IMG/VR virus record: IMGVR_UViG_3300027714_000085
Span: 1-28,431 of that record
Direction: 5' to 3' (one strand)
DNA: 28,431 bases
From: a virus
Shown here: in pieces, positions 1,719-28,431 of the stretch
Layout: every line of letters begins with the position of its first letter
Numbering within the stretch: position 1 is the first letter of the stretch
Program-made: the position numbers and the translations under genes
Notes under the pieces: generated by a model
The model's input: only the letters and a program-made list of their open reading frames with translations
Told to the model about the DNA's origin: nothing
Database searches by the model: none

Positions 1719-1720
1719 TA

Positions 1721-4956: not shown

Positions 4957-4957
4957 A

Positions 4958-6772: not shown

Positions 6773-6773
6773 C

Positions 6774-9458: not shown

Positions 9459-9460
9459 AG

Positions 9461-11239: not shown

Positions 11240-14200
11240 ATGTCAAAATCTCTTGATACCAATTTAAATACAAGCCCGTATTTTGATGATTTCGCGGCAA
11301 ACAGCCAACATCATCGAGTGCTGTTTAAGCCTTCTGTTCCAGTGCAGGCAAGAGAGTTAACGCAACTTCAAACTATTTTGCAAGCTCAGATTGAGAAGTT
11401 TGGTGATAATATTATTAAGTCAGGAAGTATTGTTAGTGGTTGCTCATTTAATACTTTTGCATCGGAATACATAAAGCTAAATGATCTTGATAGTAGCGGT
11501 GATGTTTATGTAGTTACTAATTATTCAAACGGATTTGTTGTTCAGGCTTCATCTAATCTTAGTCTGCAAACAGAAGACACAAGAAGTGGGTTTGAAATAA
11601 CAAACCCGGATTTGAATAGTTTATATGGTCAATATATCAATACTGGTGATGTAGCTGGAGTAGATAAAAAATCCTTTGATCCTGGTGATACTGTTATATT
11701 TTATCCAGCAAACGGTCAGATTTCAAATACATTTACTATTAGTGATGGTGGCAGTGCTTATACCAATGGCGACACATTAGCTTTTGCGGCTTTACGAGGT
11801 ACCAATGCTACAGCTAATGTAACAACAAACAGCACAGGTGGTATTACAGCAGTATCCTTAATTACAGCCGGTAAAGATTATAAATGGGACAATATTCCAG
11901 TAGTTACTGTTACATCAGAAACTGGTACTAGCGCAAACATTTCTCCAACAATTAATTCTACAGCTTCATTCACAATTGCTAATACATCATTCAGCAAATC
12001 CGGTAACATAGAATTTAACACTGTTGGATCAACACTGCGAGTTTCTGTTAGTGATGGAGTAGTATATCAAAAAGGTCATTTTGTAGAAGTATATAAGCAA
12101 TCGGTCAACGTCAAAGATTATGACAGGCACCCAGATCAATGTTCTATAGGTTTTGTAACAACAGAATCTATTATTAATAGTTCTTCTAATAGCTCTCTAT
12201 TAGATAATGCTGCTGGATTCAATAACGAAAATGCGCCCGGTGCAGATCGATTAAAACTTACACCAACTCTCATTAGCAATACGACGAGCAATGCTCGAGC
12301 AAGTAATAACTTTTTAACATTAATGAAATTTGAAAACGGCGAGCCCATCGTCGTTAGAGAAGATACACAATATTCTCAAATTGGTGAAGAGATGGCAACT
12401 CGGACATACGAGGAAAGCGGTAACTATGTTGTTAAGCCTTTCACTTTCGGAACTGAAGATTTAGCTAGTAACAGCACTTATGACAATGTTGTCTTAGGTG
12501 CGGGTAAAGCATATGTTCAGGGATTTAGGAACGAGTTACTTTCTGCCGGTCGAGTAAGAGTTAGAAAGGGTACTGATACTGCTAATGTAGAAAATGCGAC
12601 AGTAAGCCAAAGCTATGGCAATTATATTATTGTTGATGAATTACTTGGTAGCTTTGATTTCAATACTGGTGTAACAGTTAAATTACTTGATACTGCCGGT
12701 AACAGAATCTCCACGTGCCCAGCTGGATCGGCCGAGACAGTTCCAACAACAAATACAGCTACAGCTGTAACAGCAAGTGCGCCTACTCTTGCTGCTACTA
12801 TTATTGGTACAGCAAAAGTAAGATCAGTTACTTATGAGGACAATACACCTGGTACATCTACAGGTCAATATAGATTATATCTATTTGATGTACAAATGAA
12901 TCAAGGTAGAGCCTTTTCTTCTTCAAGAGCAGTCTCGTATTTTACTGGAGCGGATGCTGGTGTTGGATTTGCTGATGTTGTACTCACAGATGGTTCTGCG
13001 GTCCTCAAAGATACAAATCTTAGGAGATTTATACAGCCTCTTGGTACTAAAGGTATTAAGACATTCAACCATAAGACTGCTGATGTAGGAACATATACAT
13101 ATAGAACAATTAGTACCGGTACAGTACAAACAAACGGTACTATTATTATATCACTTACTGGTAATCAGATATTTGATTATACAGCAAGTAGCTATCTAAG
13201 TTCAGATGAAGAGAATGAATTCATTATTGTTGCTAATAATACATCAGCACAAACAGCAGTACTAACTGGTTCAGTAGCTACAAGTGGTAATGTTGTTACA
13301 GGGACCAGTACCACATTTACAAGTGATTTTCAGGTTGGTGATACTATTAGAGTTACAGACGCTCAAGATGAGTTAATCACAGGTATTACAAACTCAATTC
13401 ATTTAACAACATTAACAGCTTTTAGTAGCTCTGTTACTGGTAAGGCTTATAGACGACTGTATGTTGCTGATAAACCAATTCATTTGCAGAACAATACAGC
13501 AGCAAATATTCAAATTAGTTCTGATCAATCATCTGCTACTATTAATATGTCAAGAGGCAAAACTCTTGAGTCTACTCTAAAGGTACTTGTTAAGCATAAT
13601 GTTCAGAAGCGTGAGTCTGCACAGCGAAATAAGCTTCTATCTGCAAATACATATGTTAAGATAACTGGTAATAGCAATGCTGGTGGTACTACCGGACCTT
13701 GGAGTTTAGGCATCCCTGATGTATATGATATACAAAAAGTATATGTCAAGTATGGTAACTTTACTAGTATTGAAGCTGCAGCGAACGAACAAACTAGTCA
13801 GTTTGAATTAATTAGAAACCAACAAGATGGTTTTTATGGTTTGTCTAAATTAAAAATTAAGGCTGGTGCTTCTAATACTACAATCAATAGTACTGCTAGA
13901 ATTCTAGTTAGCTGCCGCCATTTTGTAAACAGTGGTAGTGGATTGGGATATTACAGCGTTGATAGTTATCCGGTCGATGATGCCACCGATACACTTCCAG
14001 CTGATAAAATTAGAACAGAACAAATTCCAGTCTATGCATCTCCATTCGATGGATCGACAACTGATCTCCGAGATGCTATTGATTTTAGGCCGCAGTGTGC
14101 AAATACAGCCAATACAACTAACGCAACAACTGCAGCATCGTCAACAACGGATCCTGCTAATACTGTTTCGTTTAGTAGCGAACAATATTTTGCTTCTCCT

Positions 14201-17200
14201 GGTAAAAGATTGACTTTGGATTATCAACATTATCTACCGAGAACAGACAAAATAACAATATCTCCTCAGGGATTAATAAAAATAATTGAGGGGGCGGGCA
14301 GTCAAAAACCAATACCACCTCAAGATCCTGCTGATGGAATGACCTTAGCTATTGTTCAGATACCAGTGCATCCTTCGTTACCTTCTAAGGATGCAAGAGA
14401 TGCGGGTAGAATGGACTATTCGTATAAGATTATTAATAAGCAAAACCGCAACTTCACAATGGCTGATATTGGCCAGATTAAAGATGAAGTAAGACGACTC
14501 CAATATTATACTTCTCTTAATTTGTTAGAACAATCATCGCTGGATTTGGTTATACCATCAGCGGCTAACACGTCGGTAGAGAGATTCAAAAACGGAATCC
14601 TTGTTGATAACTTCCAAGATAAATCTGTTGGATCAATATTGGATGCTGAATTCAAAGCAGGATATAATAAAGCGACAAAAAGAGTATCCACTAAAACCAA
14701 ATCAAGTGTTGTAGATATTACACCCAATAACTATGCTAATACCGTTAAAACTGGTGATTTAATTACGTTAGCATATGACCACGTTGCTCAGTTCGAACAA
14801 AGATCTGCTACTAAAACAAGAAATACAGCAGAAGCGTTTTGGAAGTATCATGCCACATTGAGTCTGTTCCCAGAGTATGATAACTTTATGGATGTAAGGC
14901 ATCCACCTGAAAACGACTTTCATGTTGAATTAGACTTAACATTAGGCACATCAAGTTTATTGAATAGTATTAAAGACATCGAAGCTATTCAGGCTCCACG
15001 ATCTGATGTAATTAGTGATACGTCCGCTACTTCTAAAACTGGACAAACAACAACAGTAACCAATGCAGTTAGACAAGTTCCGACGGCTGGTGGTACTAAT
15101 TCTGTTCAAACAACAACTTCAGAAGTTGTTGAAAATTACAACACTATTAGAACTATAACCAAACAGAATAGCCAAAACCAATTTAACACAACAGAGGTTA
15201 ATAACACTCAAGTTGTTGGTGAGTTTGTAAGAGATATTGCATTTAATCCTTATATAAGAGAGCAATTTCTTTACTTCCATGTATTTGGTTTGAAGAAAAA
15301 TACACGGCACTATGCTTATTTTGATAGTAAAGATGTCAATGCTCAAACTCAACCTGCAACAGTAGCAGATGCGGACGTTATATCTGAAGATAATTTTAGA
15401 GTAACTGGAGCATTAGGTTCTAATCTAGTTTCATCTAATACAGGTGAAATGTTTGGTGTGTTTCATCTACCAGCTAAAACATATGCAGTTGGTGAAAGGC
15501 AGTTGTTTATATCTGACAAAAGTACAGTAGCGTCTGCATTGGACCATTCTATGTCCCATGGGAGTATAGACTTTAATGCTTATAATTTTGGTATTGATAA
15601 ATCAAGTATTCAACTAGCAACTAAACAAATTCAAGTAAATAGATCTAGAATTGTAACAGGAACATCGGTTGAGTCTTCTTCAACAAGAAGTCAAAGACCA
15701 ACTATTACAGTTTCTCAGGAAGTTGTTGGATTTAATCCAGATCCGCCGCCGTCCCCGCCAACTAATGTCGCCGATCCTTCCGCTTTCGACATCGAAGACG
15801 GGATCGACGGGATCGACGACGACGCCGGCGACGGTGATCCATTAGCTCAGACGTTTATTATTAAAGATAGAGACAATGCTTCTGGAATGTTTATTACGAA
15901 AATGGATTTGTATTTTCAAACAAAAGATCCAGATCTCGGTATGACGGTTCAAATTAGAACAGTAGAAAACGGATATCCTGCAAGAAAAATATTGCCATAT
16001 GGCCAAGTCCATTTAAAATCATCTGAGGTTAACCTCAGCGATGATGGAACTGCTGCAACAACAGTTAGTTTCCCATCACCTGTGTTTGTTGGTGGCGGTT
16101 TAGAATATTGCTTTGTCCTAATGCCAGATGCTAATAATCCAAATTACAACGCATACGTTAGAAAGACAGGTGAAGCAGATCTAACAACTGGTACTAATCT
16201 TAATGTAGATGGTTTTGAAGGTATTATGTTCTTGTCATCTAATAACAGAGCATGGAAACCCTATGAGGATGAGGATATTAAATTTACTATCTATCGAGCT
16301 AACTTTAATTCGAGACAAGGGACAGTAGATTATCAAAACAATGATTTTGAATTCTTTACACTAGGAAGTATTAATGGTACGTTTGCTCAAGGTGAGCGAG
16401 TATTTGTATATGATAATAGTTCTAATGTTACTGGTAATGTTTCGTTTAGTTCAACAAGTGAAACGGTAACAGGTACAGGAAGTACATTTAGTACAGACTT
16501 AGCAGTTGGTAATTTCATTGCATTGACAAATGGAACATCACATTCTGTTAGAAAAGTAACAGCAATTGCTAACAACACTAGTCTAACAGTTCAAGGATTT
16601 CCAGATTATACGTCGGCCGGAGTAGCTGATATTCAGTTAACACCATCTGGTGAAGTGTATTATTATGAGTCAACGGATGTTCTTAAAGAAATGCATTTGC
16701 GAAAATCATCTGCTACTAATAGTACATTTAAATTTGCTAACAGCGCAACTATTATTGGATCAGATAGTGAAGCTAATGCTACTGTAACAACTGTTGATGA
16801 TATTAATGTTACATCTTTTGAGAATTTAATGTATCAAATTTCACCAGTAGGAACACAATTAGTTCAGTATGCACAAGCTAACACAGCTGCCGGACAAACA
16901 TCCAATGCTTCGTTTGCATTGAACGATAGAAATAACTTGAGTGAAGTAGCTCAGATTAAAAGTCTGTCAAATGAGATTGTTGGTAGTACTGGTAAATCAT
17001 GGAAGCATACATTTGAATTTAACACTGCCCAAGCATTGCTCAGTCCAGTTATCGACGACTCTATTAGTAATATCCTAAGATATGAAAATATTATTAATAA
17101 TAGTAACACCAACGAGCATCTACCACAACAAGGTAATTCAACTGCTAAGTATGTTTCAAGAGTAGTAACTTTAGAAGATGGACTTGATGCAGAAGATTTA

Positions 17201-17803
17201 AAGGTGTTTGTAACAGCTACACAACCAGCTACATCACAGGTTGAAGTATATGCTAAACTTGCTCATGAGTTAGAAAGTGATGCGTTTATTGATAGACATT
17301 GGACAAGACTAAGTAAGGTTGGTACTGATGTTCAAACTAATGCTGAACTAGAAGATGATTTCTTTGAGTTTGAATACACGCTACCTAATACACCACCCGC
17401 AACGGCACTTGTTGGTAAGGGCTTAGCGGATGTTGCAAACAACTTAATTGCTACAACAGATACTCAAGCATCTGCACTTGCAGCTGGAGATCTAGTAAAA
17501 ATTGTTAACACTTCTGCATCTACTGATTATCAAATTGAAACAGTCACAGCTGTTAATAGTACAATAATCACGGTTGGTAATGATATTAGTTTTGATAATA
17601 CACAAGCAGATATGTTTAAGATTGATACACCACAAACAGCATTTAAAGATCCACAAAACGAGACAATTGTAACGTATTACAACTCTGGACAAAATAAGTT
17701 TGATACGTATAAAGCATTCCAAATTAAAATTGTTATGTTGAGTGATAATGCAGCTCGAGTACCAAAGCTACAAGACTTCAGAGCTTTGGCGTTGAGTGTT
17801 TAA
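11240..17803 (+). CDS. Giant baseplate/fibre-anchor protein, DUF4815-like N-terminus
   Basis: This is a 2187-residue protein. Residues about 11-68 (TSPYFDDF, HHRVLFKPSVPVQARELTQL, QIEKFGDNIIKSGSIVSG) match the opening of DUF4815 phage structural proteins as I remember the family. The gene lies where T4 has gp9/gp10, so a peripheral baseplate role or fibre attachment is likely; this is inferred from position. A small beta module, G-S/T...V-T-G-T-x-T-x-F-x-x-D-x-x-V-G-D, occurs near residues 674-740 and 1734-1790, with a weaker third copy near 2059-2125. Residues 1501-1533 form a Pro- then Asp-rich linker of unusual base composition. It separates the long N-terminal part from PLAQTFIIKD, where a jelly-roll-like segment begins. 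A coiled region around residues 1075-1110 (DIGQIKDEVRRLQYYTSLNLL) may be helical. There is no transmembrane or signal segment. Confidence 0.78.
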   Translation: MSKSLDTNLNTSPYFDDFAANSQHHRVLFKPSVPVQARELTQLQTILQAQIEKFGDNIIKSGSIVSGCSFNTFASEYIKLNDLDSSGDVYVVTNYSNGFVVQASSNLSLQTEDTRSGFEITNPDLNSLYGQYINTGDVAGVDKKSFDPGDTVIFYPANGQISNTFTISDGGSAYTNGDTLAFAALRGTNATANVTTNSTGGITAVSLITAGKDYKWDNIPVVTVTSETGTSANISPTINSTASFTIANTSFSKSGNIEFNTVGSTLRVSVSDGVVYQKGHFVEVYKQSVNVKDYDRHPDQCSIGFVTTESIINSSSNSSLLDNAAGFNNENAPGADRLKLTPTLISNTTSNARASNNFLTLMKFENGEPIVVREDTQYSQIGEEMATRTYEESGNYVVKPFTFGTEDLASNSTYDNVVLGAGKAYVQGFRNELLSAGRVRVRKGTDTANVENATVSQSYGNYIIVDELLGSFDFNTGVTVKLLDTAGNRISTCPAGSAETVPTTNTATAVTASAPTLAATIIGTAKVRSVTYEDNTPGTSTGQYRLYLFDVQMNQGRAFSSSRAVSYFTGADAGVGFADVVLTDGSAVLKDTNLRRFIQPLGTKGIKTFNHKTADVGTYTYRTISTGTVQTNGTIIISLTGNQIFDYTASSYLSSDEENEFIIVANNTSAQTAVLTGSVATSGNVVTGTSTTFTSDFQVGDTIRVTDAQDELITGITNSIHLTTLTAFSSSVTGKAYRRLYVADKPIHLQNNTAANIQISSDQSSATINMSRGKTLESTLKVLVKHNVQKRESAQRNKLLSANTYVKITGNSNAGGTTGPWSLGIPDVYDIQKVYVKYGNFTSIEAAANEQTSQFELIRNQQDGFYGLSKLKIKAGASNTTINSTARILVSCRHFVNSGSGLGYYSVDSYPVDDATDTLPADKIRTEQIPVYASPFDGSTTDLRDAIDFRPQCANTANTTNATTAASSTTDPANTVSFSSEQYFASPGKRLTLDYQHYLPRTDKITISPQGLIKIIEGAGSQKPIPPQDPADGMTLAIVQIPVHPSLPSKDARDAGRMDYSYKIINKQNRNFTMADIGQIKDEVRRLQYYTSLNLLEQSSLDLVIPSAANTSVERFKNGILVDNFQDKSVGSILDAEFKAGYNKATKRVSTKTKSSVVDITPNNYANTVKTGDLITLAYDHVAQFEQRSATKTRNTAEAFWKYHATLSLFPEYDNFMDVRHPPENDFHVELDLTLGTSSLLNSIKDIEAIQAPRSDVISDTSATSKTGQTTTVTNAVRQVPTAGGTNSVQTTTSEVVENYNTIRTITKQNSQNQFNTTEVNNTQVVGEFVRDIAFNPYIREQFLYFHVFGLKKNTRHYAYFDSKDVNAQTQPATVADADVISEDNFRVTGALGSNLVSSNTGEMFGVFHLPAKTYAVGERQLFISDKSTVASALDHSMSHGSIDFNAYNFGIDKSSIQLATKQIQVNRSRIVTGTSVESSSTRSQRPTITVSQEVVGFNPDPPPSPPTNVADPSAFDIEDGIDGIDDDAGDGDPLAQTFIIKDRDNASGMFITKMDLYFQTKDPDLGMTVQIRTVENGYPARKILPYGQVHLKSSEVNLSDDGTAATTVSFPSPVFVGGGLEYCFVLMPDANNPNYNAYVRKTGEADLTTGTNLNVDGFEGIMFLSSNNRAWKPYEDEDIKFTIYRANFNSRQGTVDYQNNDFEFFTLGSINGTFAQGERVFVYDNSSNVTGNVSFSSTSETVTGTGSTFSTDLAVGNFIALTNGTSHSVRKVTAIANNTSLTVQGFPDYTSAGVADIQLTPSGEVYYYESTDVLKEMHLRKSSATNSTFKFANSATIIGSDSEANATVTTVDDINVTSFENLMYQISPVGTQLVQYAQANTAAGQTSNASFALNDRNNLSEVAQIKSLSNEIVGSTGKSWKHTFEFNTAQALLSPVIDDSISNILRYENIINNSNTNEHLPQQGNSTAKYVSRVVTLEDGLDAEDLKVFVTATQPATSQVEVYAKLAHELESDAFIDRHWTRLSKVGTDVQTNAELEDDFFEFEYTLPNTPPATALVGKGLADVANNLIATTDTQASALAAGDLVKIVNTSASTDYQIETVTAVNSTIITVGNDISFDNTQADMFKIDTPQTAFKDPQNETIVTYYNSGQNKFDTYKAFQIKIVMLSDNAARVPKLQDFRALALSV
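15741..15840 (+). other. GC-rich Pro/Asp linker inside the 2187-residue gene
   Basis: By hand count 65 of these 100 bases are G or C, against 23 of 60 in the adjacent 15661-15720. The codons switch to C- and G-ending forms (CCG, GAC, GCC, ATC). They encode PDPPPSPP, a short neutral stretch, then EDGIDGIDDDAGDGD. A nine-base unit GGGATCGAC is repeated in tandem at about 15810-15827. It looks like a hinge of separate origin between two structural halves. Confidence 0.7.
16023..16038. repeat. 16-bp perfect palindrome CTGAGGTTAACCTCAG
   Basis: This is a gapless inverted repeat within codons for residues about 1595-1600 of the 2187-residue gene. It has no T-run after it, so it is not a terminator of the usual kind. 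It could be chance or a protein-binding site. Confidence 0.4.
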
Positions 17804-18028: not shown

Positions 18029-18688
18029 ATGGCTAAAACATCATATCTTGGTGCAAACATTGCGGTAGCAACAGATACGTTTAGAGAATTGGTCAACAGA
18101 ACTAATCAGTTGGTATATGATCAAGGAACGATCGTTATAACTGTTGGTGCTGTATCTACACCCAATTCAACAAACCACACTATTACTTCTGGTAATGGAT
18201 ATGTTAATGGCACATTCTCTGCTAATACATTAGCCGTTACACAAAATTTAAGAGGCGGTACTGTTGCTACTGCTGCAGTAATGACGATTGGTTCAAATAC
18301 AGTACCATCAACAAACGTCACTCATGAAGTTGGTAATACAACCATGATGTTTGGGAATGGTTATTTTAAGAATGTAATCAGCGCTGGTGATGTAGAAGCA
18401 AACTATTCTTCTGACAAAAAATTGAAAACCGATCTCCAACAGATGGATAATGCACTTGAAGTTGTGAGAAAGATAAATGGTTATATGTTCAAGTGGAAGA
18501 CTGATGATGAAAAAAACGGTAAGCAAGATTTAGGTGTTATAGCGCAAGAAGTTCAAAAAGAGTTACCGTTCCTCGTTACAACAAATGGTAATGGTAATTT
18601 AGCTGTAAAGTATCAATCGTTAATTCCCTTGTTAATTGAAGCGATAAAGGAACTCAGTATCAAAGTCGAAGAACTGGAGAATAAGTAA
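18029..18688 (+). CDS. Short fibre protein with C-terminal S74 intramolecular chaperone
   Basis: This is a 219-residue protein. Residues about 122-219 form a peptidase-S74/ICA chaperone domain: NYSSDKKLKTDLQQMDNAL, then INGYMFKWK, DLGVIAQEVQKELP and VKYQSLIPLLIEAIKEL. In this family Ser and Lys five residues apart form the self-cleavage dyad; here they are S128 and K133, with D129. The domain folds a trimeric beta fibre and then cuts itself off. Residues 1-40 (FRELVNRTNQLVYDQGTI) resemble virion-attachment segments of small marine phage fibres. Residues 41-121 are a Thr/Asn/Gly-rich beta segment that would be the mature product. The final coil (IKELSIKVEELENK) is the usual S74 end. It precedes the two proteins most likely to form the fibre. 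It may act only on itself or help fold neighbours. Confidence 0.88.
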   Translation: MAKTSYLGANIAVATDTFRELVNRTNQLVYDQGTIVITVGAVSTPNSTNHTITSGNGYVNGTFSANTLAVTQNLRGGTVATAAVMTIGSNTVPSTNVTHEVGNTTMMFGNGYFKNVISAGDVEANYSSDKKLKTDLQQMDNALEVVRKINGYMFKWKTDDEKNGKQDLGVIAQEVQKELPFLVTTNGNGNLAVKYQSLIPLLIEAIKELSIKVEELENK

Positions 18689-18981
18689 TGCCATTAAAAG
18701 TTGCTGGCGTAACGATTGTTAACTCTGTTGCAAATATACAAATATCTACATTACCTGATACTGGTATCACTACAGGAAATTTTGGTAATACAACATTTGC
18801 ATTAACAGCTAACGTCACAGATAGAGGTTTAGTTAATGCGGTCAGTACGGCCGCAATTGTAAAAACTTCCCGAAATTTCGAAGCCACATCAAACAATGAT
18901 GCCTCGTATGTTGTCTACGTAAGCACCTCTGGGCCATCCGGTGGGGCGAATGGAGATATCTGGTACCAGACGTATAGCTAG
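18688..18981 (+). CDS. Small fibre-associated protein
   Basis: This 97-residue protein has an ATG sharing its first base with the previous stop (TAATG); GGAGA at 18676-18680 lies seven bases upstream. It opens MPLKVAGVTIVNSVANIQIS, a layout common at the N-termini of phage fibre proteins, and the partial gene at 28146 also opens with a P-L-K-[VI]-x-x-x-x motif. It ends SGGANGDIWYQTYS, a G-D-I-W-[YF]-Q phrase I associate with C-terminal or linker ends of phage fibre proteins. It may be a head-to-fibre adaptor, or a complete small fibre subunit. The last 90 bases are clearly more GC-rich than the rest of the gene. Confidence 0.75.
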   Translation: MPLKVAGVTIVNSVANIQISTLPDTGITTGNFGNTTFALTANVTDRGLVNAVSTAAIVKTSRNFEATSNNDASYVVYVSTSGPSGGANGDIWYQTYS

Positions 18982-18993
18982 GAATAGAGTCTG

Positions 18994-21900
18994 ATGTCGA
19001 CGTCGTACGCACCAAGGCTCTATGCGAAGGAGTATGCTGGAGGGGATAGAATCTTCGAGGTCTCGTATACGGGACAGCGGACGACTACTCCTTTCGTTGT
19101 GTATACCAATGCGTATCATGGATACTTTAATGGATTCCAAGGCGTCTATACTAAGTCGAGAACATCAACTTTAGTATGGCAAACCAACTATGCCGGTAAT
19201 TATTCTACAACATATGAGGGTTATGTCAACTACGAAAGTATTGACACCACAACATATTCAAAAATTTATGCCGCCACCGGTGTCAACTTTGCTGGCCAGC
19301 TTGGCTATGTAAAAAATTACGATTCGGCTACTAATCAACCTGACAGCATTTGGGCTGATGCAAATAAATTTACAAACTATACTGGTGCTTATAGTGCTGA
19401 GGTTAACTATGCTCGTGTTGTATCATACACCGGGACCGGTGGTTATGATGGACTAAGTTACACGAGTACATATACTAACTATGCAAACTATGTTCCAACG
19501 TATTCTGGCTTTATAGGATTCTCTAGCTACACAAAAGATTATGTTGGAAATGTTAATTATGATAAGAATTATAGTAAAACATATGTTGGTACTACAACAT
19601 ATCAAGCAGACTGGAATAGAACATATACAAAGCAGTATGCTGGTTTAACCACATACACCGGAGACTATACAAAAGTATATGCTGGTGTAGCTGCCTATGC
19701 AGCTGGCCCATGGGTTGGTGCTACTAGCTTTGTACCATTTAGTAAGGACTATGGTGGAGCTATTGCATACCTCAATGCAGCTGGTGTAGGGTTTACTGGA
19801 TTTATTAATTATACTAAGACATATCAAGCCCAACGATATTGGCATGGAGCCGTAGACTATACTAAAATTTGGCAAGGCAATTATGTTGGAGCTATAAATT
19901 ACTCAGCAGAATATGTTGGAAGAGCCTCTTACGAAGCGGCTGAAAATTTTCATAAAATATATTCAAAATCTTATACTAAATCAGGAACATTCTCAAGGGT
20001 TTGGCAAGGTGGACTTCGATATGCAGGTCAAGTAAGTTATGATGGTACAGCATATGTGGCAACCTATGTAGGACCTATGAGTTTTACTGGTACTACCAAT
20101 TATTCTGGTGGGACTGTTTATACAGGAACATATAGTGGATTAGCAGACGATTCATATAGAGCAGCTGCGTACGCAGGTGAATATACTAAAATATGGGTCG
20201 GCGACTACACAAAAACATATCAAAAAGATTATGTTACAACGTATGATAAGAATTGGCAAAAAGATTACGTAAAAACATATCAAAAAGATTATGTTACAAC
20301 GTATGACAAGAATTGGGTAAAGGCATATGATAAGAACTGGGTTAAGTCATATGAAAAAGATTATGGTAAGACTTGGTCAAAGCTCTACACTAAGAATTAT
20401 GATACGGTATATGAAAAAGATTACGTAAAAACATATTCGAAAGATTATGTAGCAACTTATACTAAAAATTGGGTAAAGGCATATGATAAGAACTGGGTTA
20501 AGTCATATGAAAAAGATTATGCTAGGACTTGGTTAATAAACTACGTTAAGAATTATGATACGGTATATGAAAAAGATTACGTAAAAACATATTCGAAAGA
20601 TTACGTAACAAACTATACAAAAAATTGGGTTAAAGCGTACGAGCAGAACTGGGTTAAGTCATATGAAAAAGATTATGCTAGGACTTGGTTAATAGACTAC
20701 GTTAAGAATTATGATACCGAGTATGAAAAAGATTATGTAAAGGCTTATGTAAAAACATACACCGGCTCATACACCGGTAGTTATCTAGGTATCTACACGA
20801 AGACATACACAAAAGCATATCTTGGTGTATATGAAGCGGCTTATGGTCAATTCTATCTTAAAACATATACAAAAGGATATGCTAAGGTATGGGTTGGTAC
20901 TTATGATAAAGATTATATAACAAACTATACAACAACTTATGATAAGAATTATGTTAAGACATATACGAAAATATGGTCAAAGGATTATGTCAAGGCATAT
21001 GCTAAAGTGTGGGTTGGTACTTATGATAAAGACTATGTAACAGATTACTCAACAGAGTACAACAAAGATTACGTAGCAACTTATACGAAGATTTGGACAA
21101 AGAACTGGGTTAAGTCATATGCTAAAGTATGGTTGGGTGTATACCAAAAAGATTATGTAACAGATTATGATAAAACATATGATAAAGATTATGTTAAAAC
21201 TTATACGAAAACCTGGACTAAGAACTGGGTCAAGGGATATGATAAAGTATGGCTAGGTGTATATAGTAAAGATTATGTTAAAGTTTATCATAATCCATAC
21301 GAGAACTTTGACACAACAGTATTGTTGTTGAACGCCGAGGCACCTGCTGCTACAGATGGCTCAACTGAAATTCAAGATCTCTCTGATCAAGGTAATCATG
21401 TAACAACAGCACATGGTGGTGCTGCTATAACCACAGACCAATATAAATTTGGTGCTGCTTCATTAGAAGTTCCTGGTGGCAACGATGGCTTTACAGTTAA
21501 CATCACTGATGAATCCGCCTTCAATTTTGGAACAGGGGATTTCACAGTTGAATTCTGGATGAGGAGTTATGAGGACGCCGATGGTGGCTTTCCAACTATT
21601 TTAGACGCATGGGATTCTAGCGACGACTCCACTGTATGGTTGCTTTCATCTGGACAAGTCTCGGACCACACGGCACTAAAATATTATGAGGGAGCAATTG
21701 GGGTAGTCGGCGACAAACTCACTGCAGATGATACTAATCCTTGGTGGCAAAGTGGAGTAACGCCGGCGTGGTTCCACATTGCACTAGTGAGAGCGAGTGG
21801 CACAGTAAAGATATATGTTAATGGTACAGCAGACACTACAACCGCCTCGAGCAGTACAGACTTAACTGGCGCCGATAGATTATCGATTGGTAACAGAGCA

Positions 21901-24900
21901 ACGATGAGTCAAAGAGGAATTCATGCTCAGATTGATGACCTTAGAATTGATAAGGGCAATGCTAAGTATACGGCTAACTTTACAGTTACTGATAATGAGA
22001 CGGCCAACGAGCAAATCAATACTGACGATTGGACTTCATTTTCAAAAGCGTGGGTAAAAACTTATACGAAAGTATATTCTAAAGATTATGTCAAAGATTA
22101 TGCTAAAGTATGGGTTGGTACTTATGATAAAGATTATGTAGCAACTTATACTAAAATTTGGCAGAAAGACTATGTAGCAACTTATACGAAGAATTGGGTT
22201 AAGTCATATGAAGGTGGTTTTGGTGCTAACTATACTAAAATATATACAAAAAGATATTCAAAGAATTGGACAGGGGTCTACACTAAGGTTTGGACTGGAC
22301 TAATTTACTATGGTGGTTATGGTTCTGGTAGTCGTGGTTACACTAAAACATACACAGGAGTATTTACTGGTCACTATGATAAGGACTATACTAAGGTTTG
22401 GTCTAAAGTGTGGACAGGAGTATATAATAAAGACTACGTTAAAACATATGATAAAAACTGGGTCAAGGATTATACAAAAACATATGATAAGAACTGGGTT
22501 AAAACGTATGAAGGTAGTTTCGATGCTACTTATACTAAAAATTGGGTTAAAGATTACGATAAGACTTATGACAAAGATTATAATAAAACTTATATTAATG
22601 TTTGGGTTGGTGCTTGGACAAAGAATTGGGTTAAAGGTTATGAGGGATCCTTTGATGCAACATATGAGAAAGATTACGTAACAGATTATACAAAAACATA
22701 TGATAAAAACTATGTTAAGACATATACAAAAATTTGGACTAAGAACTGGCTTGGGGCATATGAAGGTTCGTTTGATGCAACATATGAGAAAGATTACGTA
22801 ACAAACTATACAACAACTTATGATAAGAATTGGGTTAAGGCTTATACAAAAATTTGGACTAAGAACTGGGTTAAAACGTATGAAGGTAGTTTCGATGCTA
22901 CTTATAGTAAGAATTATGTAAAAGATTACGATAAGACTTATGACAAAGATTATGTAGCAACTTATACAAAAATCTGGACTAAGAATTGGGTTAAAACGTA
23001 TGAAGGTTCGTTTGATGCAACATATGAGAAAGACTACGTCAAAAATTATGACGTAGTATATATTAAAGCATACGAAGGTTCGTTTGACGGTAATTGGAGT
23101 AAGGATTATGAGGGTAGCTTTGATCAGGCCTGGGAAGGAACATTTGATCAAACCTATAATAAAACTTATACAAAGGCCTATACGAAGAGGTGGGAAAAGA
23201 CATACACAAAGAATTATGATACTCTTTATACCAAAACATACGATAAAGATTATGTAGCAATATACAATAAAGATTACGTAGCAACTTATACTAAAAATTG
23301 GGTTAAGGATTATGATAAAACTTATATAAAGACCTATAATAAGACTTGGGAAAAGGCATACGAAAAGAATTATGATACTCTTTATACCAAAACATACGAT
23401 AAAGATTATGTAGCAACATATGAAAAAGATTATGTTACTACATATGATAAGAATTGGGTTAAAGATTATGATAAAACTTATACAAAGAATTATGATAAGA
23501 CTTGGGAAAAGGACTACGGCCAGAATTATGATACTCTTTATACCAAAACATATGATAAGGACTACGTTGCTACATATGAAAAAGATTACGTAGCAACTTA
23601 TACTAAAAATTGGGTTAAAGATTATGATAAAACCTATACTAAGGATTATGTAGCAACTTATACCAAAACTTGGGTAAAAGATTATAATAAGTTATATCAA
23701 GGTGCCTACACTAAAATATATGGTGGTATCTTTGCTACGTTCTTGAAGTACTACATGGGTGCAGCGAATTTTGCTGGCAGTCAGAATTACGCAAAAAACT
23801 GGACGGGCCCAACATATTATGTTAAGGAATGGGGCACTGTGTATTCCGGTACATATACTGGTGACTATACTCACACCTTTACCACAACGTATAACAAAGA
23901 TTATGAAGCAGCTTATACAAAGATATATGAAAAGATCTGGCAAAAGACATACACCAAGACATATACCAAAGATTATAGCAAAGACTATAACAAAGATTAT
24001 ACTGCAGTATATGCAGCAGATTATAGCACAAACTATACTAAAGCTTGGATTAAGATTTATGGCAAGACATATGTCGGGCCAGTATATTATGGTGGGTATT
24101 CTCATGCTAGTGAAACAACAAACTATAACAAAGATTATGGTAATACGTTCACTGGAACATACACTAAAATTTGGACTCATAACTGGGAAAAGACATGGAC
24201 CAAAACATACACTAAAGCATACTCTATAGATTACAACAAAGATTACGTAAAAGATTATACTGCGGCATACTCGAAAGACTGGACTCATAACTGGGTAAAG
24301 ACATATACTAAAGATTGGGAAAAAGTATATCAAGCAAATTATACTGGTCACTTTGCGCCAGCTGCGCCATATCTAGCAGCATACACCGGTAGTACTAATT
24401 ATTCTGGTGCAGTCAACTATACTAAAACATATGAAGGTCCATACTTAGGGAGCTATGCTCCTACGTATACTGGCGACGGTGATTTCACTCAAAGATACAC
24501 TGGTGCTCTTACGTCTGTTATGCCTTATATGGGTACAACAAGCTACGTTGGTCCTTCTTCTGGTCAGCTTGATTCTAGCATTACAACTCAACCTAAGTTG
24601 GCTGTTATGCAAGATAACGATTGGAAAGCTATCCGTAGTCTGTTTGTTAAGCAGGCTGATCAATGGAAGAGAGTTAAGTATGTTAATCTTAAGCAAGCTG
24701 ATACTTGGAAAATTGGTTATATTGGTTATGATACAACAGATATTGTTCTGGATAGTAGTCAAACCTTAGTAGACGATTCGGATGCTGGTTCAGCTCGAGG
24801 CGATGATCTGCATCTTGGAAAGATCACTTATTACATAAATGATTTTAATCTTAGATCGTATCTAATTGCAAAGGGTAAAAGTCCAGATACAGAACCACAG

Positions 24901-27900
24901 ATTGTTAATATATACGTTGGTGAGAAAGATGAAAATACAAAGTACTTTGTGTTTGGTTCTACTGTAGCTGGCACGCCAGCCATTGATCTTACAATGAGTG
25001 CTGTTACAGCAAACGTGTCTGGATCTACACAACAAAGTATTAAACATCTTGTTAGGATTTTAACTTATTCAACAGGATATGTTGTTGGTAAGGGTGGTAA
25101 TGGTGGTGATGCAAACCTTGCGTCGAGAGGGATAGGTAATGATGGATTAGCCGGATCTGACGCAATTAAGTCTTGCGCTAACGTTGAGTTGTTTATTGAG
25201 AATTATGGAATAATTGCTGGTGGTGGCGGTGGCGGTGGTGCTTCTGGTATTACTGATCCATACAGTTCAGCTGCTGGTGTATTCTCAAAAACCTACTTAG
25301 GTCATACTTATCATGGTGCGACTACGAGTTTTGAAAAAGAATATACAAAGACCTGGGATAAGGTTTGGTCTGGATCTACTGGCGACTTCGCTAAATCATA
25401 TACTACGACTTATGTCAAAGCCTACGTTGGTGTTACCACTGGTGCTCACTATGCAGCAACTTGGGAAAAGGACTTCACAAAGGTTTGGGCAAAGGCTTGG
25501 GATTCGTCAGCAGCTAGCTACACAAAGATCTATGCTGGTTCGTATCACGCTGATTATGTAAGAGGATATCAGAAAGATTATACTGGCAAAATTTACTACG
25601 TTGATGAAGATGCAGAAACCTATACGGGTGTAACCGGATCTTATACATCAGCTGTAGGCTACAGCGATGGTGAAGTTCCTTTTTCGATTGAATATAATAA
25701 ATCATATGTTTTTGGATATACTGGCCAAGTCGCTTATACAAAATCAATTAGTTATGTGTCGCCAGGTCTGTTCGAGTCTTATACTGGTACTAATGCATAC
25801 GCTAAGGCATATGCTAAGGTCTGGGAAAAAGTTTATGCTAAGGTGTGGAACTCATCTGCTGCATCATACACCAAAGCATATGCGCCAGTTGATTACCAGA
25901 AGCAGTATTTAGGAGGAACAGGTAACCAATGGATTGCAACTGTATTTAGCAAAACGTGGCTAGGTAGTTATCTAGCAGTAAGTACCTACGATAAAACATT
26001 TACGGATGCAGGGCCTTACACAAAAGGATATGGTGGATACGTTGGTGCTGGATATACGACATCAGTTGGATCTTATCTTAAAACATATGTTGCTAGTTAT
26101 ACGAAAGACTGGACAAAAATATATACAAAGAATTATGATAAAGCTTATACTAAGATTTGGGAAAAGAATTACGATAAGGCCTATGAGGGTGCTGACTATA
26201 CTAAGGCATATGTGAAATCATATACTAAGTCGTACGATGGGTTGTCTTTCTCTGGTGTGTTTGAAAAAGCTTATACAAAAGAGTATACAAAGGTATGGAC
26301 TAAGTCGTATGTTAATGAATGGGCCGGCGGATATAGTAAAGACTACACGAAAACGTATGAGGGTACATTCTCAAAGACTTATCAAGGAACATATACCAAA
26401 ACATATGAAAGCGCTACTGAAGCATACCAAGGTGCCTCATATGATGGTGCTACATACACAAAAATATATACGAAGAGTTATGATAAGGTTTATGAGGGTA
26501 GCTTCACCAAGGCGTGGCAGAAGGCATACGAAGGCTCGTTCGACAAGATATACAGCGGTGACTACACCAAAGCATACACCAAATCATATGATAAAGACTA
26601 CAGCAAAGATTATACAGGTACGTTTACTAAGACGTACACAAAGAACTATGATAGAGACTATGCTAAGTTGTGGAACTCATCTGCAGCAACCTATACCAAA
26701 ACATATGAGAAAGATTACACTAAAGATTATGAGGGTACGTTCAGTAAAATTTATACCAAATCTTATGATAAGGATTATGAAAAGGTTTATACTGGAGCTT
26801 ACACCAAGTCTTATGTTGGCACGTATACAAAAGATTATGAAAAGGTTTATACTGGATCATTTACTAAGTCATATCAAAAAGACTATAGTAAGGATTATGT
26901 TGCAACATATATAGCGACATACTCAAGAGGATATGACAAAGATTATATTGGTGATTATAGTAAAGATTATGTGGGTACGTTTACTAAAATATATACTGCA
27001 TCGTATGGTAGTGTGACATACAACAAAGATTATACTGCAGTATATACAAAAGATTATATTAAAGAATACACAAAAGATTTTGTTGGTACGTATACCAAAT
27101 CATATGACAAAGACTATAACAAAGTGTATACCGGAACCTTTACAGCTTCATACATTAAAACATATGCTGCTGATTACACTAAATCATATCAGAAGGGGTA
27201 TACTAAGGCCTATCAAGCAGCGTATTCAAAGTCGTGGCAGAAAGAATATCTTGGAGAATATCAAACTGCCGGTGGGGCATATGGTGCTTACCTTAAAGCA
27301 TATTCGGTTGGTGCTTGGGCAAAAACATATACAGGACACGGAGACTTTGTTGGTACATATTCTAAGAACTATATAACAATATACACCAAGAATTACGACG
27401 GCGCTTATACAAAAGACTATCACAAAGTATATACAGGTACATTTGATCATGCCTGGGAGAAGGTTTGGGAGAAGGCGTTTTCAAAAGCCTATGAGAAGGA
27501 CTATACAAAGATTTGGGTTGGGCCAATTTATTATGGTGGTTACTCTTCTAGTAGTCAAACAACTAACTATACTAAAGTATACTCAAAAATATACAACAAA
27601 GATTGGGTCAAACAATACGGCGCGACGTATACAGGCACATATACAGGCACGTATACAAAAACTTATACGAAGATTTATGTTGGTACATATACCAAAGAGT
27701 ATACTAAGGACTGGGTAAAAACATACGAATCTAGAGCATATAGCAGTCAAGCTCAGGTTAATTATCTAGGTACTGCAGAGACAAGTGGTGTCGCTGGATC
27801 TGGTGGTGCAGGTTGGAATATTGGACTTGCTGGCACTACAGGATCTCCCGATGCTCATTTGTTAAAACCTGCTGAGAATGGTGATATATTGAATGGTGGG

Positions 27901-28137
27901 GCATTCGGAGTACCAGATTGGGCATATGGTAACTCAAGAGCTATCGGCGGAACTGGTGGTCATATAGGTTGTATAGGATCTGGTGGTGGTGAAAGATACT
28001 TGAGAAAGACTAGATATGGTAGAAGTGGCGATGGCGGTCAACCCGGCGCAGCAATTGGTGGATACGATTCTAATTATGTTACAATGATATACCAAGGGAA
28101 TATTCTAGGTGATTCTAATTATATGTTCCAGAGTTAG
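18994..28137 (+). CDS. 3047-residue aromatic-tetrapeptide repeat fibre protein
   Basis: The start is ATG 18994, with AGGA at 18980-18983 ten bases upstream. Layout by residue: 1-178, Tyr/Gly-rich irregular repeat; 179-392, mix of six-residue [YWF]-x-G-x-x-x and four-residue units; 393-769, strict [YW]-x-K-x tetrapeptides; about 771-1000, LamG-like lectin domain; 1016-1580, strict tetrapeptides with one interruption; 1617-1787, a third tetrapeptide block; 1876-1910, three W-K-x-[IV]-type mini-repeats seen in phage tail proteins; 1911-2087, beta domain ending in a Gly-rich tip segment (GKGGNGGD, IIAGGGGGGGAS); 2088-2925, more tetrapeptides; 2926-3047, rest of the Gly-rich tip. Only two Cys exist, C2061 and C2993, one in each tip half. 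No signal peptide, membrane segment or S74 domain is present. The position after baseplate genes and the LamG and Gly-rich tip domains argue for a host-contacting fibre. The function of the tetrapeptide blocks is unknown. Confidence 0.88.
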   Translation: MSTSYAPRLYAKEYAGGDRIFEVSYTGQRTTTPFVVYTNAYHGYFNGFQGVYTKSRTSTLVWQTNYAGNYSTTYEGYVNYESIDTTTYSKIYAATGVNFAGQLGYVKNYDSATNQPDSIWADANKFTNYTGAYSAEVNYARVVSYTGTGGYDGLSYTSTYTNYANYVPTYSGFIGFSSYTKDYVGNVNYDKNYSKTYVGTTTYQADWNRTYTKQYAGLTTYTGDYTKVYAGVAAYAAGPWVGATSFVPFSKDYGGAIAYLNAAGVGFTGFINYTKTYQAQRYWHGAVDYTKIWQGNYVGAINYSAEYVGRASYEAAENFHKIYSKSYTKSGTFSRVWQGGLRYAGQVSYDGTAYVATYVGPMSFTGTTNYSGGTVYTGTYSGLADDSYRAAAYAGEYTKIWVGDYTKTYQKDYVTTYDKNWQKDYVKTYQKDYVTTYDKNWVKAYDKNWVKSYEKDYGKTWSKLYTKNYDTVYEKDYVKTYSKDYVATYTKNWVKAYDKNWVKSYEKDYARTWLINYVKNYDTVYEKDYVKTYSKDYVTNYTKNWVKAYEQNWVKSYEKDYARTWLIDYVKNYDTEYEKDYVKAYVKTYTGSYTGSYLGIYTKTYTKAYLGVYEAAYGQFYLKTYTKGYAKVWVGTYDKDYITNYTTTYDKNYVKTYTKIWSKDYVKAYAKVWVGTYDKDYVTDYSTEYNKDYVATYTKIWTKNWVKSYAKVWLGVYQKDYVTDYDKTYDKDYVKTYTKTWTKNWVKGYDKVWLGVYSKDYVKVYHNPYENFDTTVLLLNAEAPAATDGSTEIQDLSDQGNHVTTAHGGAAITTDQYKFGAASLEVPGGNDGFTVNITDESAFNFGTGDFTVEFWMRSYEDADGGFPTILDAWDSSDDSTVWLLSSGQVSDHTALKYYEGAIGVVGDKLTADDTNPWWQSGVTPAWFHIALVRASGTVKIYVNGTADTTTASSSTDLTGADRLSIGNRATMSQRGIHAQIDDLRIDKGNAKYTANFTVTDNETANEQINTDDWTSFSKAWVKTYTKVYSKDYVKDYAKVWVGTYDKDYVATYTKIWQKDYVATYTKNWVKSYEGGFGANYTKIYTKRYSKNWTGVYTKVWTGLIYYGGYGSGSRGYTKTYTGVFTGHYDKDYTKVWSKVWTGVYNKDYVKTYDKNWVKDYTKTYDKNWVKTYEGSFDATYTKNWVKDYDKTYDKDYNKTYINVWVGAWTKNWVKGYEGSFDATYEKDYVTDYTKTYDKNYVKTYTKIWTKNWLGAYEGSFDATYEKDYVTNYTTTYDKNWVKAYTKIWTKNWVKTYEGSFDATYSKNYVKDYDKTYDKDYVATYTKIWTKNWVKTYEGSFDATYEKDYVKNYDVVYIKAYEGSFDGNWSKDYEGSFDQAWEGTFDQTYNKTYTKAYTKRWEKTYTKNYDTLYTKTYDKDYVAIYNKDYVATYTKNWVKDYDKTYIKTYNKTWEKAYEKNYDTLYTKTYDKDYVATYEKDYVTTYDKNWVKDYDKTYTKNYDKTWEKDYGQNYDTLYTKTYDKDYVATYEKDYVATYTKNWVKDYDKTYTKDYVATYTKTWVKDYNKLYQGAYTKIYGGIFATFLKYYMGAANFAGSQNYAKNWTGPTYYVKEWGTVYSGTYTGDYTHTFTTTYNKDYEAAYTKIYEKIWQKTYTKTYTKDYSKDYNKDYTAVYAADYSTNYTKAWIKIYGKTYVGPVYYGGYSHASETTNYNKDYGNTFTGTYTKIWTHNWEKTWTKTYTKAYSIDYNKDYVKDYTAAYSKDWTHNWVKTYTKDWEKVYQANYTGHFAPAAPYLAAYTGSTNYSGAVNYTKTYEGPYLGSYAPTYTGDGDFTQRYTGALTSVMPYMGTTSYVGPSSGQLDSSITTQPKLAVMQDNDWKAIRSLFVKQADQWKRVKYVNLKQADTWKIGYIGYDTTDIVLDSSQTLVDDSDAGSARGDDLHLGKITYYINDFNLRSYLIAKGKSPDTEPQIVNIYVGEKDENTKYFVFGSTVAGTPAIDLTMSAVTANVSGSTQQSIKHLVRILTYSTGYVVGKGGNGGDANLASRGIGNDGLAGSDAIKSCANVELFIENYGIIAGGGGGGGASGITDPYSSAAGVFSKTYLGHTYHGATTSFEKEYTKTWDKVWSGSTGDFAKSYTTTYVKAYVGVTTGAHYAATWEKDFTKVWAKAWDSSAASYTKIYAGSYHADYVRGYQKDYTGKIYYVDEDAETYTGVTGSYTSAVGYSDGEVPFSIEYNKSYVFGYTGQVAYTKSISYVSPGLFESYTGTNAYAKAYAKVWEKVYAKVWNSSAASYTKAYAPVDYQKQYLGGTGNQWIATVFSKTWLGSYLAVSTYDKTFTDAGPYTKGYGGYVGAGYTTSVGSYLKTYVASYTKDWTKIYTKNYDKAYTKIWEKNYDKAYEGADYTKAYVKSYTKSYDGLSFSGVFEKAYTKEYTKVWTKSYVNEWAGGYSKDYTKTYEGTFSKTYQGTYTKTYESATEAYQGASYDGATYTKIYTKSYDKVYEGSFTKAWQKAYEGSFDKIYSGDYTKAYTKSYDKDYSKDYTGTFTKTYTKNYDRDYAKLWNSSAATYTKTYEKDYTKDYEGTFSKIYTKSYDKDYEKVYTGAYTKSYVGTYTKDYEKVYTGSFTKSYQKDYSKDYVATYIATYSRGYDKDYIGDYSKDYVGTFTKIYTASYGSVTYNKDYTAVYTKDYIKEYTKDFVGTYTKSYDKDYNKVYTGTFTASYIKTYAADYTKSYQKGYTKAYQAAYSKSWQKEYLGEYQTAGGAYGAYLKAYSVGAWAKTYTGHGDFVGTYSKNYITIYTKNYDGAYTKDYHKVYTGTFDHAWEKVWEKAFSKAYEKDYTKIWVGPIYYGGYSSSSQTTNYTKVYSKIYNKDWVKQYGATYTGTYTGTYTKTYTKIYVGTYTKEYTKDWVKTYESRAYSSQAQVNYLGTAETSGVAGSGGAGWNIGLAGTTGSPDAHLLKPAENGDILNGGAFGVPDWAYGNSRAIGGTGGHIGCIGSGGGERYLRKTRYGRSGDGGQPGAAIGGYDSNYVTMIYQGNILGDSNYMFQS
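19528..20133 (+). repeat. Mixed four- and six-residue aromatic repeat (residues 179-380)
   Basis: Aromatic residues are spaced almost only by 4 or 6. From residue 179 to 235 all twelve intervals are 4 or 6, and from 283 to 349 all fourteen are. Of the fourteen six-residue units counted between 183 and 380, twelve carry Gly at the third position (for example YVGNVN, YAGLTT, YVGAIN, WQGGLR). Four-residue units mostly carry Lys or Gly there. Confidence 0.85.
20311..20778 (+). repeat. 156-bp tandem repeat, three copies (block A)
   Basis: Copies start at 20311, 20467 and 20623. Each is 52 residues or 13 tetrapeptides, beginning NWVKAY. Copies one and two share exact runs of 55 bases (20311-20365 with 20467-20521) and 57 bases (20391-20447 with 20547-20603). 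Copy three diverges after the NYDT landmark. Confidence 0.9.
20878..21297 (+). repeat. 120-bp tandem repeat, three and a half copies (block A)
   Basis: Copies start at 20878, 20998, 21118 and 21238, marked by Y-[AD]-K-V-W-[VL]-G-[TV]-Y. Each is 40 residues or 10 tetrapeptides. The last copy is cut by the LamG domain; the same KVWVGTYDKDYV phrase resumes after LamG at residue 1038. Confidence 0.88.
21304..21993 (+). other. LamG-like (concanavalin A-type) domain inside the repeat protein
   Basis: Residues about 771-1000 interrupt the tetrapeptide repeat. The order of motifs is that of LamG/Laminin_G_3 jelly rolls in phage and marine proteins: TTVLLLNAE, IQDLSDQGNHV, KFGAASLEV, FNFGTGDFTVEFWMR, AWFHIALVRASGTVKIYVNG, and AQIDDLRIDKGNAKYTANF. 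Such domains usually bind glycans. Counted lines run near 50% G+C, above the flanking repeat, so the domain probably came from a different source. Confidence 0.85.
22507..23118 (+). repeat. EGSF-marked repeat, five copies of 132/120 bp (block B)
   Basis: The phrase YEGSFDATY starts at 22507, 22639, 22759, 22879 and 22999. The spacings are 132, 120, 120 and 120 bases (11 or 10 tetrapeptides). Length therefore changes by whole 12-base units. Confidence 0.88.
23215..23682 (+). repeat. 156-bp tandem repeat, three copies (block B)
   Basis: Copies start at 23215, 23371 and 23527, marked by NYDTLYTKTYDKDYVA. The 52-residue period and the NYDT[VL]Y landmark equal those of the 156-bp repeat in block A about 3 kb upstream, so the two arrays probably share an ancestor. 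Confidence 0.88.
23842..24354 (+). repeat. Tetrapeptide block C with one YYGGY interruption
   Basis: Residues 1617-1693 and 1711-1787 are in four-residue aromatic register. They are separated by an 18-residue interruption, GPVYYGGYSHASETTN, which shifts the register by two. Confidence 0.85.
24619..24723 (+). other. Trp-Lys mini-repeat before the tip domain
   Basis: Residues 1876-1910 hold three related units: DWKAIRSLFVKQA, DQWKRVKYVNLKQA, DTWKIGY. The W-K-x-[IV]-[KR]-x-x-[FY]-V-K type repeat is frequent before the C-terminal domain of phage tail and fibre proteins. It marks the end of the N-terminal repeat shaft and the start of a conventional fibre C-terminus. Confidence 0.7.
25051..25254 (+). 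other. Glycine-rich tip domain, first half
   Basis: Residues 2020-2087 contain GYVVGKGGNGGDAN, GIGNDGLAGSDAI and NYGIIAGGGGGGGAS, the pattern of Gly-rich tip domains of phage fibres (related in style to the polyglycine helices of T-even gp38-type adhesins). C2061 is one of the only two cysteines. The domain stops mid-way and resumes at 27769. Confidence 0.75.
25255..27768 (+). repeat. Aromatic-repeat insertion (about 2.5 kb) inside the tip domain
   Basis: Residues 2088-2925 are again [YWF]-x-[KG]-x repeats, less strict than blocks A and B. They include repeated interruptions W[ND]SSAA[ST]YTK (residues 2169, 2285, 2560) and YYGGYSSSS (about 2846). The repeat divides what otherwise reads as one Gly-rich domain. 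Confidence 0.8.
27769..28134 (+). other. Glycine-rich tip domain, second half
   Basis: Residues 2926-3047 contain TSGVAGSGGAGWN, ENGDILNGGAFG, AIGGTGGHIGCIGSGGG and GDGGQPGAAIGG, then NYVTMIYQGNILGD. This last phrase matches the usual end of Gly-rich phage tips (G-x-P/A-G-x-A-I-x-G, then V-T-x-I/W-x-x-x-G-x-I-x-G). C2993 is the second of two cysteines. Confidence 0.75.
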
Positions 28138-28145
28138 ATAATGCC

Positions 28146-28431
28146 ATGGGGAAACCACTCAAGATTAAAACCACTGGCGGTGGGACATGGATATCTCTAC
28201 AAGAAACCCCTGATACAGAATTAACCCACACCATACATCAAATATTAACGGAATTTGCTTCTAGTACCTCTGGTACAGGAACGCTTTCTGTTGGAACAGA
28301 CACCGGTGATAGCGTTGGTACGTTTACTGATACCAATTCGACAGCATCATCAACAACCACATTATACCAAAACCTTACATCTATTTCTGAAAGTAGTATA
28401 GTGCGGCCGGTAGAGATGGGTACCACAGTAC
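28146..28431 (+). CDS. Fibre-like structural protein, 3'-truncated by window edge
   Basis: The frame opens at ATG 28146 and stays open to the last base, giving about 95 residues. It begins MGKPLKIKTTGGGTWISLQE, a P-L-K-[IV]-K opening common in small marine phage fibre proteins and similar to the opening of the 97-residue protein at 18688. What follows is Thr/Ser/Gly-rich (TGTLSVGTDTGDSVGTF), as in fibre shafts. An ATG at 28141 is in another frame and stops after 27 codons, so 28146 is preferred although no clear Shine-Dalgarno precedes it. It lies eight bases after the stop of the giant repeat gene and probably belongs to the same fibre cassette. Confidence 0.74.
   Translation, partial: MGKPLKIKTTGGGTWISLQETPDTELTHTIHQILTEFASSTSGTGTLSVGTDTGDSVGTFTDTNSTASSTTTLYQNLTSISESSIVRPVEMGTTV

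Follow-up and report, generated by a model that had tools for sequence, protein, structure and literature searches.

The window (the whole 28,431-nucleotide stretch, IMG/VR record IMGVR_UViG_3300027714_000085), which comes from an uncultured relative of phage T4, probably a marine one, contains a 3047-residue gene, here called gene A, that very probably encodes a gp38-type adhesin of a T4-like phage. A strict aromatic-x-lysine-x tetrapeptide makes up over half of the chain, and alignment puts some 845 residues of this repeat in the place of loop B, the distal receptor-recognition loop of gp38. The first-pass annotation of this DNA had described a giant fibre with a new shaft; on the strength of sequence comparison, our reading has shifted to a giant gp38 adhesin whose receptor loop holds a tetrapeptide tract under selection.

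The phage is T4-like and related to the Kyanoviridae, of a lineage related to pelagiphages and cyanophages, and the window is organized as follows.

381..11230, plus strand: baseplate genes (phrog_350 tail protein, gp5, a 450-aa protein, gp25, gp6, gp7-like and gp8)
11240..17803, plus strand: VrlC/DUF4815 protein of 2187 aa, which marks the tail-fibre island of Kyanoviridae-type phages
18029..18688, plus strand: fibre-type protein of 219 aa with a Peptidase_S74 chaperone domain
18688..18981, plus strand: 97-aa protein between the S74 gene and gene A, with no Pfam or PHROG match
18994..28137, plus strand: gene A (3047 aa, ATG start, uninterrupted open reading frame), very probably a giant adhesin of the gp38 type that contains aromatic tetrapeptide tracts
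28146..28431, plus strand: first 95 aa of gene B, a second repeat protein, cut by the window end

A gp53 fragment precedes the phrog_350 tail protein. The order gp25-gp6-gp7-gp8-VrlC is common to the window, Pelagibacter phage HTVC008M and cyanophage Syn1, and in HTVC008M and Syn1 tail fibres occupy the region after VrlC. The gp6 of the window is 37% identical to that of HTVC008M, and the gp23 of L011, a relative that carries gene A, is 70% identical to that of Stenotrophomonas phage DLP6 and 65% identical to that of pelagiphage Mosig. (The labels L004-L079 denote the contigs or loci of relatives in IMG/VR.) The psbA gene was absent from the 11 contigs checked, most of which are fragments. In those relatives that extend far enough, the S74 gene likewise lies upstream of gene A. 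We entertained the idea that the product of gene A is an intracellular or secreted protein with a borrowed gp38 domain rather than a virion adhesin, an idea in keeping with the finding of no cultured relative of the K-type. The placement of the gene in a baseplate and tail-fibre island, after gp8, the DUF4815 protein and the S74 fibre protein in the relatives examined, nevertheless makes this exceedingly improbable.

Aromatic residues make up 20.6% of gene A, and 461 of its 627 spacings between consecutive aromatics are exactly 4, compared with a mean of 64.7 and a maximum of 82 in 200 shuffles. The unit can be written [Y/W/F]-[T/V/D/E]-[K/G/A]-[T/D/N]. Altogether, 441 units sit in runs of at least 4, the longest uninterrupted runs comprising 117 units (residues 1116-1583) and 95 units (residues 393-772). 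Within runs of at least 4, position 1 is Y in 328 units, W in 80 and F in 33, and position 3 is K in 273, G in 72, A in 35 and T in 27; position 2 is mostly T, V, D or E and position 4 T, D, N, A or V, with S and N also found at these two positions. The same runs comprise 199 distinct tetrapeptides. The composition of the strict tracts is of low complexity (Y/T/K/D); aromatics account for 20%, Cys is absent and Pro nearly so. In residues 1-392 and in parts of 2093-2490 the repeat is degenerate rather than strict. An assembly artefact as the origin of this architecture was rejected on the grounds that several independent contigs share it. Gene A can be divided into the following parts.

18994..20169, plus strand: residues 1-392, N-terminal region in which the repeat is degenerate ([Y/F]-x-G-x, irregularly spaced), without a Pfam match
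20170..21309, plus strand: tract 1, residues 393-772, 95 uninterrupted units
21502..21948, plus strand: LamG / concanavalin A-like domain, residues 837-985 (PF13385 and ConA-like Foldseek matches)
22039..24477, plus strand: tract 2, residues 1016-1828, about 190 units including the run of 117, with short non-repeat spacers
24595..24729, plus strand: three-Trp segment (W1877, W1891, W1905), placed by alignments where S16 gp38 has its gp37-attachment segment
24811..25248, plus strand: first half of the gp38 core, residues ~1940-2085, putative beta-helix and Gly-rich motifs up to GGGGGGG (PF05268)
25249..27789, plus strand: tract 3, residues 2086-2932, about 845 residues of strict and degenerate repeat, inserted at the aligned place of gp38 loop B
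27790..28134, plus strand: second half of the gp38 core (Gly-rich tip), residues 2933-3047, from alignments and an AlphaFold2 model

Residues 2007-2088 match PF05268 (36.9 bits against a curated cut-off of 25, E 4e-9), and gene A also matches PHROG 2056, 'tail fiber protein; host specificity'. The PF05268 domain is split in the gene A of the window and full length in relatives; in L028 (991 aa) the match covers profile positions 4-216 of 218 (44.8 bits, E 1.7e-11). L028, L014 and L017 can be aligned continuously with the gp38 proteins of S16 and PP01, the long Gly motif being followed by loop B, and the Gly-rich motifs separated by hypervariable loops are alignable between gene A relatives and S16/PP01 gp38. 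The gene A of the window was placed through alignment to these three uninterrupted relatives. Loop B spans 17-25 residues in L028, L014, L005 and L017. In the window, tetrapeptide and related sequence occupies this place over 854 residues (counted from the end of the motif as set by the script, the tract proper being about 845 residues); the corresponding lengths are 1093 in L007, 1095 in both L010 and L011, 1136 in L013, 1325 in L006 and 1599 in L025, and the L004 contig terminates within the insertion. The tree of the core, which has weak support (66/52), would fit a single origin of the loop-B insertion. In L025 (5015-16240, 3741 aa) a further repeat-like C-terminal extension of about 90 residues follows the gp38 core. 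In PP01, residues 158-170 of gp38 (loop B) are essential for adsorption (PMC12892980).

Much of what the first-pass annotation had described in gene A was borne out, namely a frame dominated by [Y/W/F]-x-K-x units, a LamG-like domain and a Gly-rich tip, the last of which corresponds to the GP38 adhesin domain. That domain also lends support to the proposal that gene A specifies a tail-tip protein with a role in host contact, a role deduced here from sequence.

Ahead of the gp38 core lie about 1,840 residues of repeat, which are interrupted by the LamG-like domain (PF13385, 46.8 bits against a curated cut-off of 27.6, E 4.4e-12; note that this match surfaced only when residues 773-1015 were scanned alone, not in the scan of the whole protein). 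The gp38 of S16 is present as a single copy on a trimeric fibre and docks onto gp37 via three Trp (PMC6851490). The three Trp of gene A have a 14-residue spacing, and AlphaFold2 predicts, at low confidence, that the segment forms strands, unlike the helices of S16, so that docking on a gp37-like trimer is uncertain. No gp37 adjoins gene A, the neighbour being the S74 protein. Between tracts, a spacer of the form [WY]VGP[VIT][YF]YGG[FY]xSGSxxTNY recurs (at residues 1101, 1694 and 2842 in the window, and in L007, L009, L005, L026 and others) and, between different phages, is nearly identical in gene A and gene B. Gene A also contains another recurrent spacer, W[DN]SSAA[NST]Y.

The tetrapeptide tracts had no match in Pfam (the whole-protein scan found the gp38 domain only), and the PHROG scan gave only a weak match to a family of unknown function (phrog_15773, E 0.006). 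A PDB sequence search with the tract returned nothing usable (best E 0.68), and PDB sequence searches with the LamG region and with the gp38 core or its profile returned no usable match. The earlier suggestion that the repeat has no named class thus holds in Pfam, PHROGs and PDB sequences, the profile check having found no family, and the similar tracts in phage proteins that were mentioned with it agree with the presence of relatives in phage contigs. No tract relatives were found in bacterial genomes, and no aromatic tetrapeptide tracts were found in the same genome region of the cultured phages HTVC008M, Mosig, Melnitz and Syn1. (A tblastn match to Enterococcus phage 156 was rejected as a different simple repeat that is annotated on the other strand.) Two segments were modelled with AlphaFold2 from shallow alignments, residues 601-1200 (5 alignment rows) and residues 1850-3047 (11 rows). 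The gp38 core was predicted to be beta-stranded, with a pLDDT of about 80-91 over much of its first half and of 57-85 in the tip, and the tracts were predicted as long strands at low confidence (pLDDT about 20-48). The low-confidence tract dominated the 1850-3047 model, for which reason Foldseek gave no match to gp38; its hits were barrel-like noise, with E of 0.09 or more.

Immediately downstream of gene A is gene B, which in relatives has its repeat tract set between a conserved N-terminal region of about 240 residues (in which three similar copies can be made out by eye) and an end that is likewise conserved (...LWVRxA or ...YTLYVRxA). Gene B has the same repeat without a gp38 domain, and thus the role of the tract need not depend on gp38. 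Its length was 341 (12 units; L034 and L035), 652, 850, 1363, 1698, 2530, 2708, 3347 or 3884 aa. Minimal versions of 338-341 aa with 12 F/Y-T-G/N-x units are found at L034:9986-11011, L035:8861-9886 and L036:9968-10984. The N-termini of gene B were too diverse for their alignment to serve as a search query; a search with the gene B version of phage C48C1 yielded 43 further loci (L037-L079), nearly all with Gly/Arg at position 3 ([Y/F]-x-[G/R]-x) and often with two gene B copies in tandem. This R/G version of the repeat is widespread, reaches lengths of up to 3884 aa, and has a clear superperiod of 3 units (12 residues). A superperiod is the sign by which a triangular or quadrilateral beta-solenoid, with its set number of units in each coil, would be recognized. 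In K-type tracts no superperiod dominates; correlation peaks, all of them weak, fall at lags of 5, 9 and 14 units, and identical units are strongly avoided as neighbours. Among 50,697 annotated phage records searched, C48C1 was the sole carrier of the repeat to be found. Three conserved small genes lie downstream of gene B in L005, L014 and L017 (recognizable by an ending ...RKAK/RRSK..., a start ...GF[MI][LY]VAS... and MTPIYxIQSEIL...), and have counterparts in C48C1 and in the phages with minimal gene B.

Codons were compared by unit position in gene A and its relatives, using pairs with 57-88% protein identity. The aromatic class at position 1 was retained in 99-100% of aligned units even though synonymous sites were often near saturation, and pN/pS ranged over 0.01-0.14 for position 1 and 0.07-0.25 for position 3, as against 0.30-0.82 for positions 2 and 4. 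The low pN/pS, together with the retention of aromatics despite heavy synonymous change, shows that the tetrapeptide rule is under selection. Of the 25 indels in L010/L006, a K-type pair of gene B, 24 are multiples of 4 residues, a count that is biased because alignments of periodic sequence prefer such gaps. Tandem DNA arrays in the repeat have periods of 12, 24, 60, 120 and 156 nt (those of 156 and 120 nt, or 13 and 10 units, are found in tract 1), and the periods of 60, 120 and 156 nt indicate that blocks of 5, 10 and 13 units were duplicated in register. Genes A and B share repeat blocks of about 600-900 bp at 79-84% identity in three contigs, which suggests past exchange between them.

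Duplication of blocks in multiples of 12 nt is what would be expected if the tract were a coding expansion that itself does little and that slippage and recombination enlarge in loops that permit it, and both the insertion of the repeat into several unrelated backbones (the gene A N-terminus, loop B and gene B) and the very variable length of gene B (341-3884 aa) are in keeping with this. Against it stand the constraint on position 1, with aromatics fully retained over deep synonymous divergence, and the finding that adjacent units avoid likeness (z about -10), which is the opposite of fresh slippage. The tract is thus maintained by selection, and we regard mere expansion as very improbable. 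A second possibility is that the tracts are disordered or sticky low-complexity brushes, whose aromatic-cationic stickers would serve non-specific surface binding or condensation. The low pLDDT in the tracts, their composition and the tolerance of spacers within them would all fit such a brush. Sticker-and-spacer polymers, however, need neither exact spacing over hundreds of units nor constraint at positions 1 and 3, and the 12-residue superperiod of the R/G type also speaks against disorder; we therefore consider brushes rather unlikely.

The long turn-free runs (117 units) could instead indicate that the tracts are elongated, beta-structured fibre shafts, perhaps made of three identical chains, which would hold the LamG and gp38 domains at a distance from the tail. 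The repeats lie between globular domains, gene B varies widely in length between fixed ends, and K-type tracts are without an intrachain superperiod, as would be expected when identical residues of parallel chains pair. The loop-B tract, however, begins and ends on neighbouring Gly-rich strands of one domain, so that it must fold back and cannot form a one-way shaft, and, given that each trimeric fibre of S16 bears a single gp38 chain, this tract is unlikely to form a trimeric shaft. Thus, the proposal of the first-pass annotation that the repeat forms a shaft did not find support and appears unlikely to us, and the tethered ends and the monomeric state of S16 gp38 favour a folded-back contact pad.

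We reasoned that gene A might well, with about an even chance, specify a giant gp38 adhesin that presents a constant aromatic/Lys scaffold and a fast-evolving face for contact with the host surface. If the tract is an extended beta structure, the conserved positions 1 and 3 would lie on one face and the variable positions 2 and 4 on the other, and its diversifying aromatic-cationic surface would enlarge the area over which the adhesin contacts the host. The loop-B tract would fold back as a pad or hairpin on the receptor-binding side, and the N-terminal tracts and LamG may add reach or glycan contact. Growth and change of the tract would presumably occur through duplication of blocks of 5-13 units and through exchange with gene B. 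More tentatively, the tract could be a new repeat class with its own regular fold, an expandable module present in at least two unrelated backbones of uncultured T4-like phages that, grafted onto receptor-binding loops, provides a variable surface for contact with the host.

The gp38 adhesins are the textbook case in which short hypervariable loops, carried on a polyglycine scaffold, determine host range; here, by alignment, 854-1599 residues of strictly periodic repeat under selection take the place of one such loop. If the tract contacts the host, very large contact surfaces would be built and diversified from a four-residue code. If it folds, the result would be a new type of repeat architecture, obeying the simplest of rules and relevant to structural biology and protein design. 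Moreover, with its fixed ends and its ladder of lengths, from 12 units up to several hundred, gene B makes the question of structure experimentally tractable.

Several types of short-period repeat occur in phage fibres, and collagen-like Gly-X-Y, the triple beta-spiral, the gp5-type beta-helix and Rfr pentapeptides all give elongated or solenoid proteins from short periodic sequence. To our knowledge, none of these has a four-residue aromatic rule, the comparison being one of sequence and not of fold. A literature search for an aromatic tetrapeptide repeat in phages returned only gp54 of mycobacteriophage Tweety, a different repeat, which resembles the present one in being a tetrapeptide of variable number between conserved ends; its unit is Ala-Ala-[G/W/Q]-[S/Y], in 15-48 nearly identical copies, and the gene lies outside the tail genes and was judged non-essential (PMC2884959). 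Phage C48C1 (OQ984149, Kyanoviridae) encodes a hypothetical protein of 3347 aa, CDS0201, that shares the four-residue aromatic periodicity (298 lag-4 aromatic pairs against 89 expected) and has N- and C-termini of the gene B type and the conserved downstream genes. Unlike gene A, it has Gly/Arg rather than Lys at position 3, a 12-residue superperiod and no gp38 domain. In its Gly-rich core, a putative polyglycine sandwich, gene A has the motif order of the long-tail-fibre adhesin gp38 of T2-type phages, represented by Salmonella phage S16 (PDB 6F45) and E. coli phage PP01, and it further resembles the S16 and PP01 proteins in its terminal ...GxAxxGY...GNIxGD end, in the three-Trp segment before the core and in having a variable loop at the same place. 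Unlike S16 and PP01 gp38, gene A is encoded beside an S74 protein with no adjacent gp37 and has an N-terminal repeat region with LamG. The S16 and PP01 proteins are about 250 aa long, as against 3047 aa for gene A, and loop B spans about 10 residues in PP01 (Q161-V170), as against about 845 in gene A.
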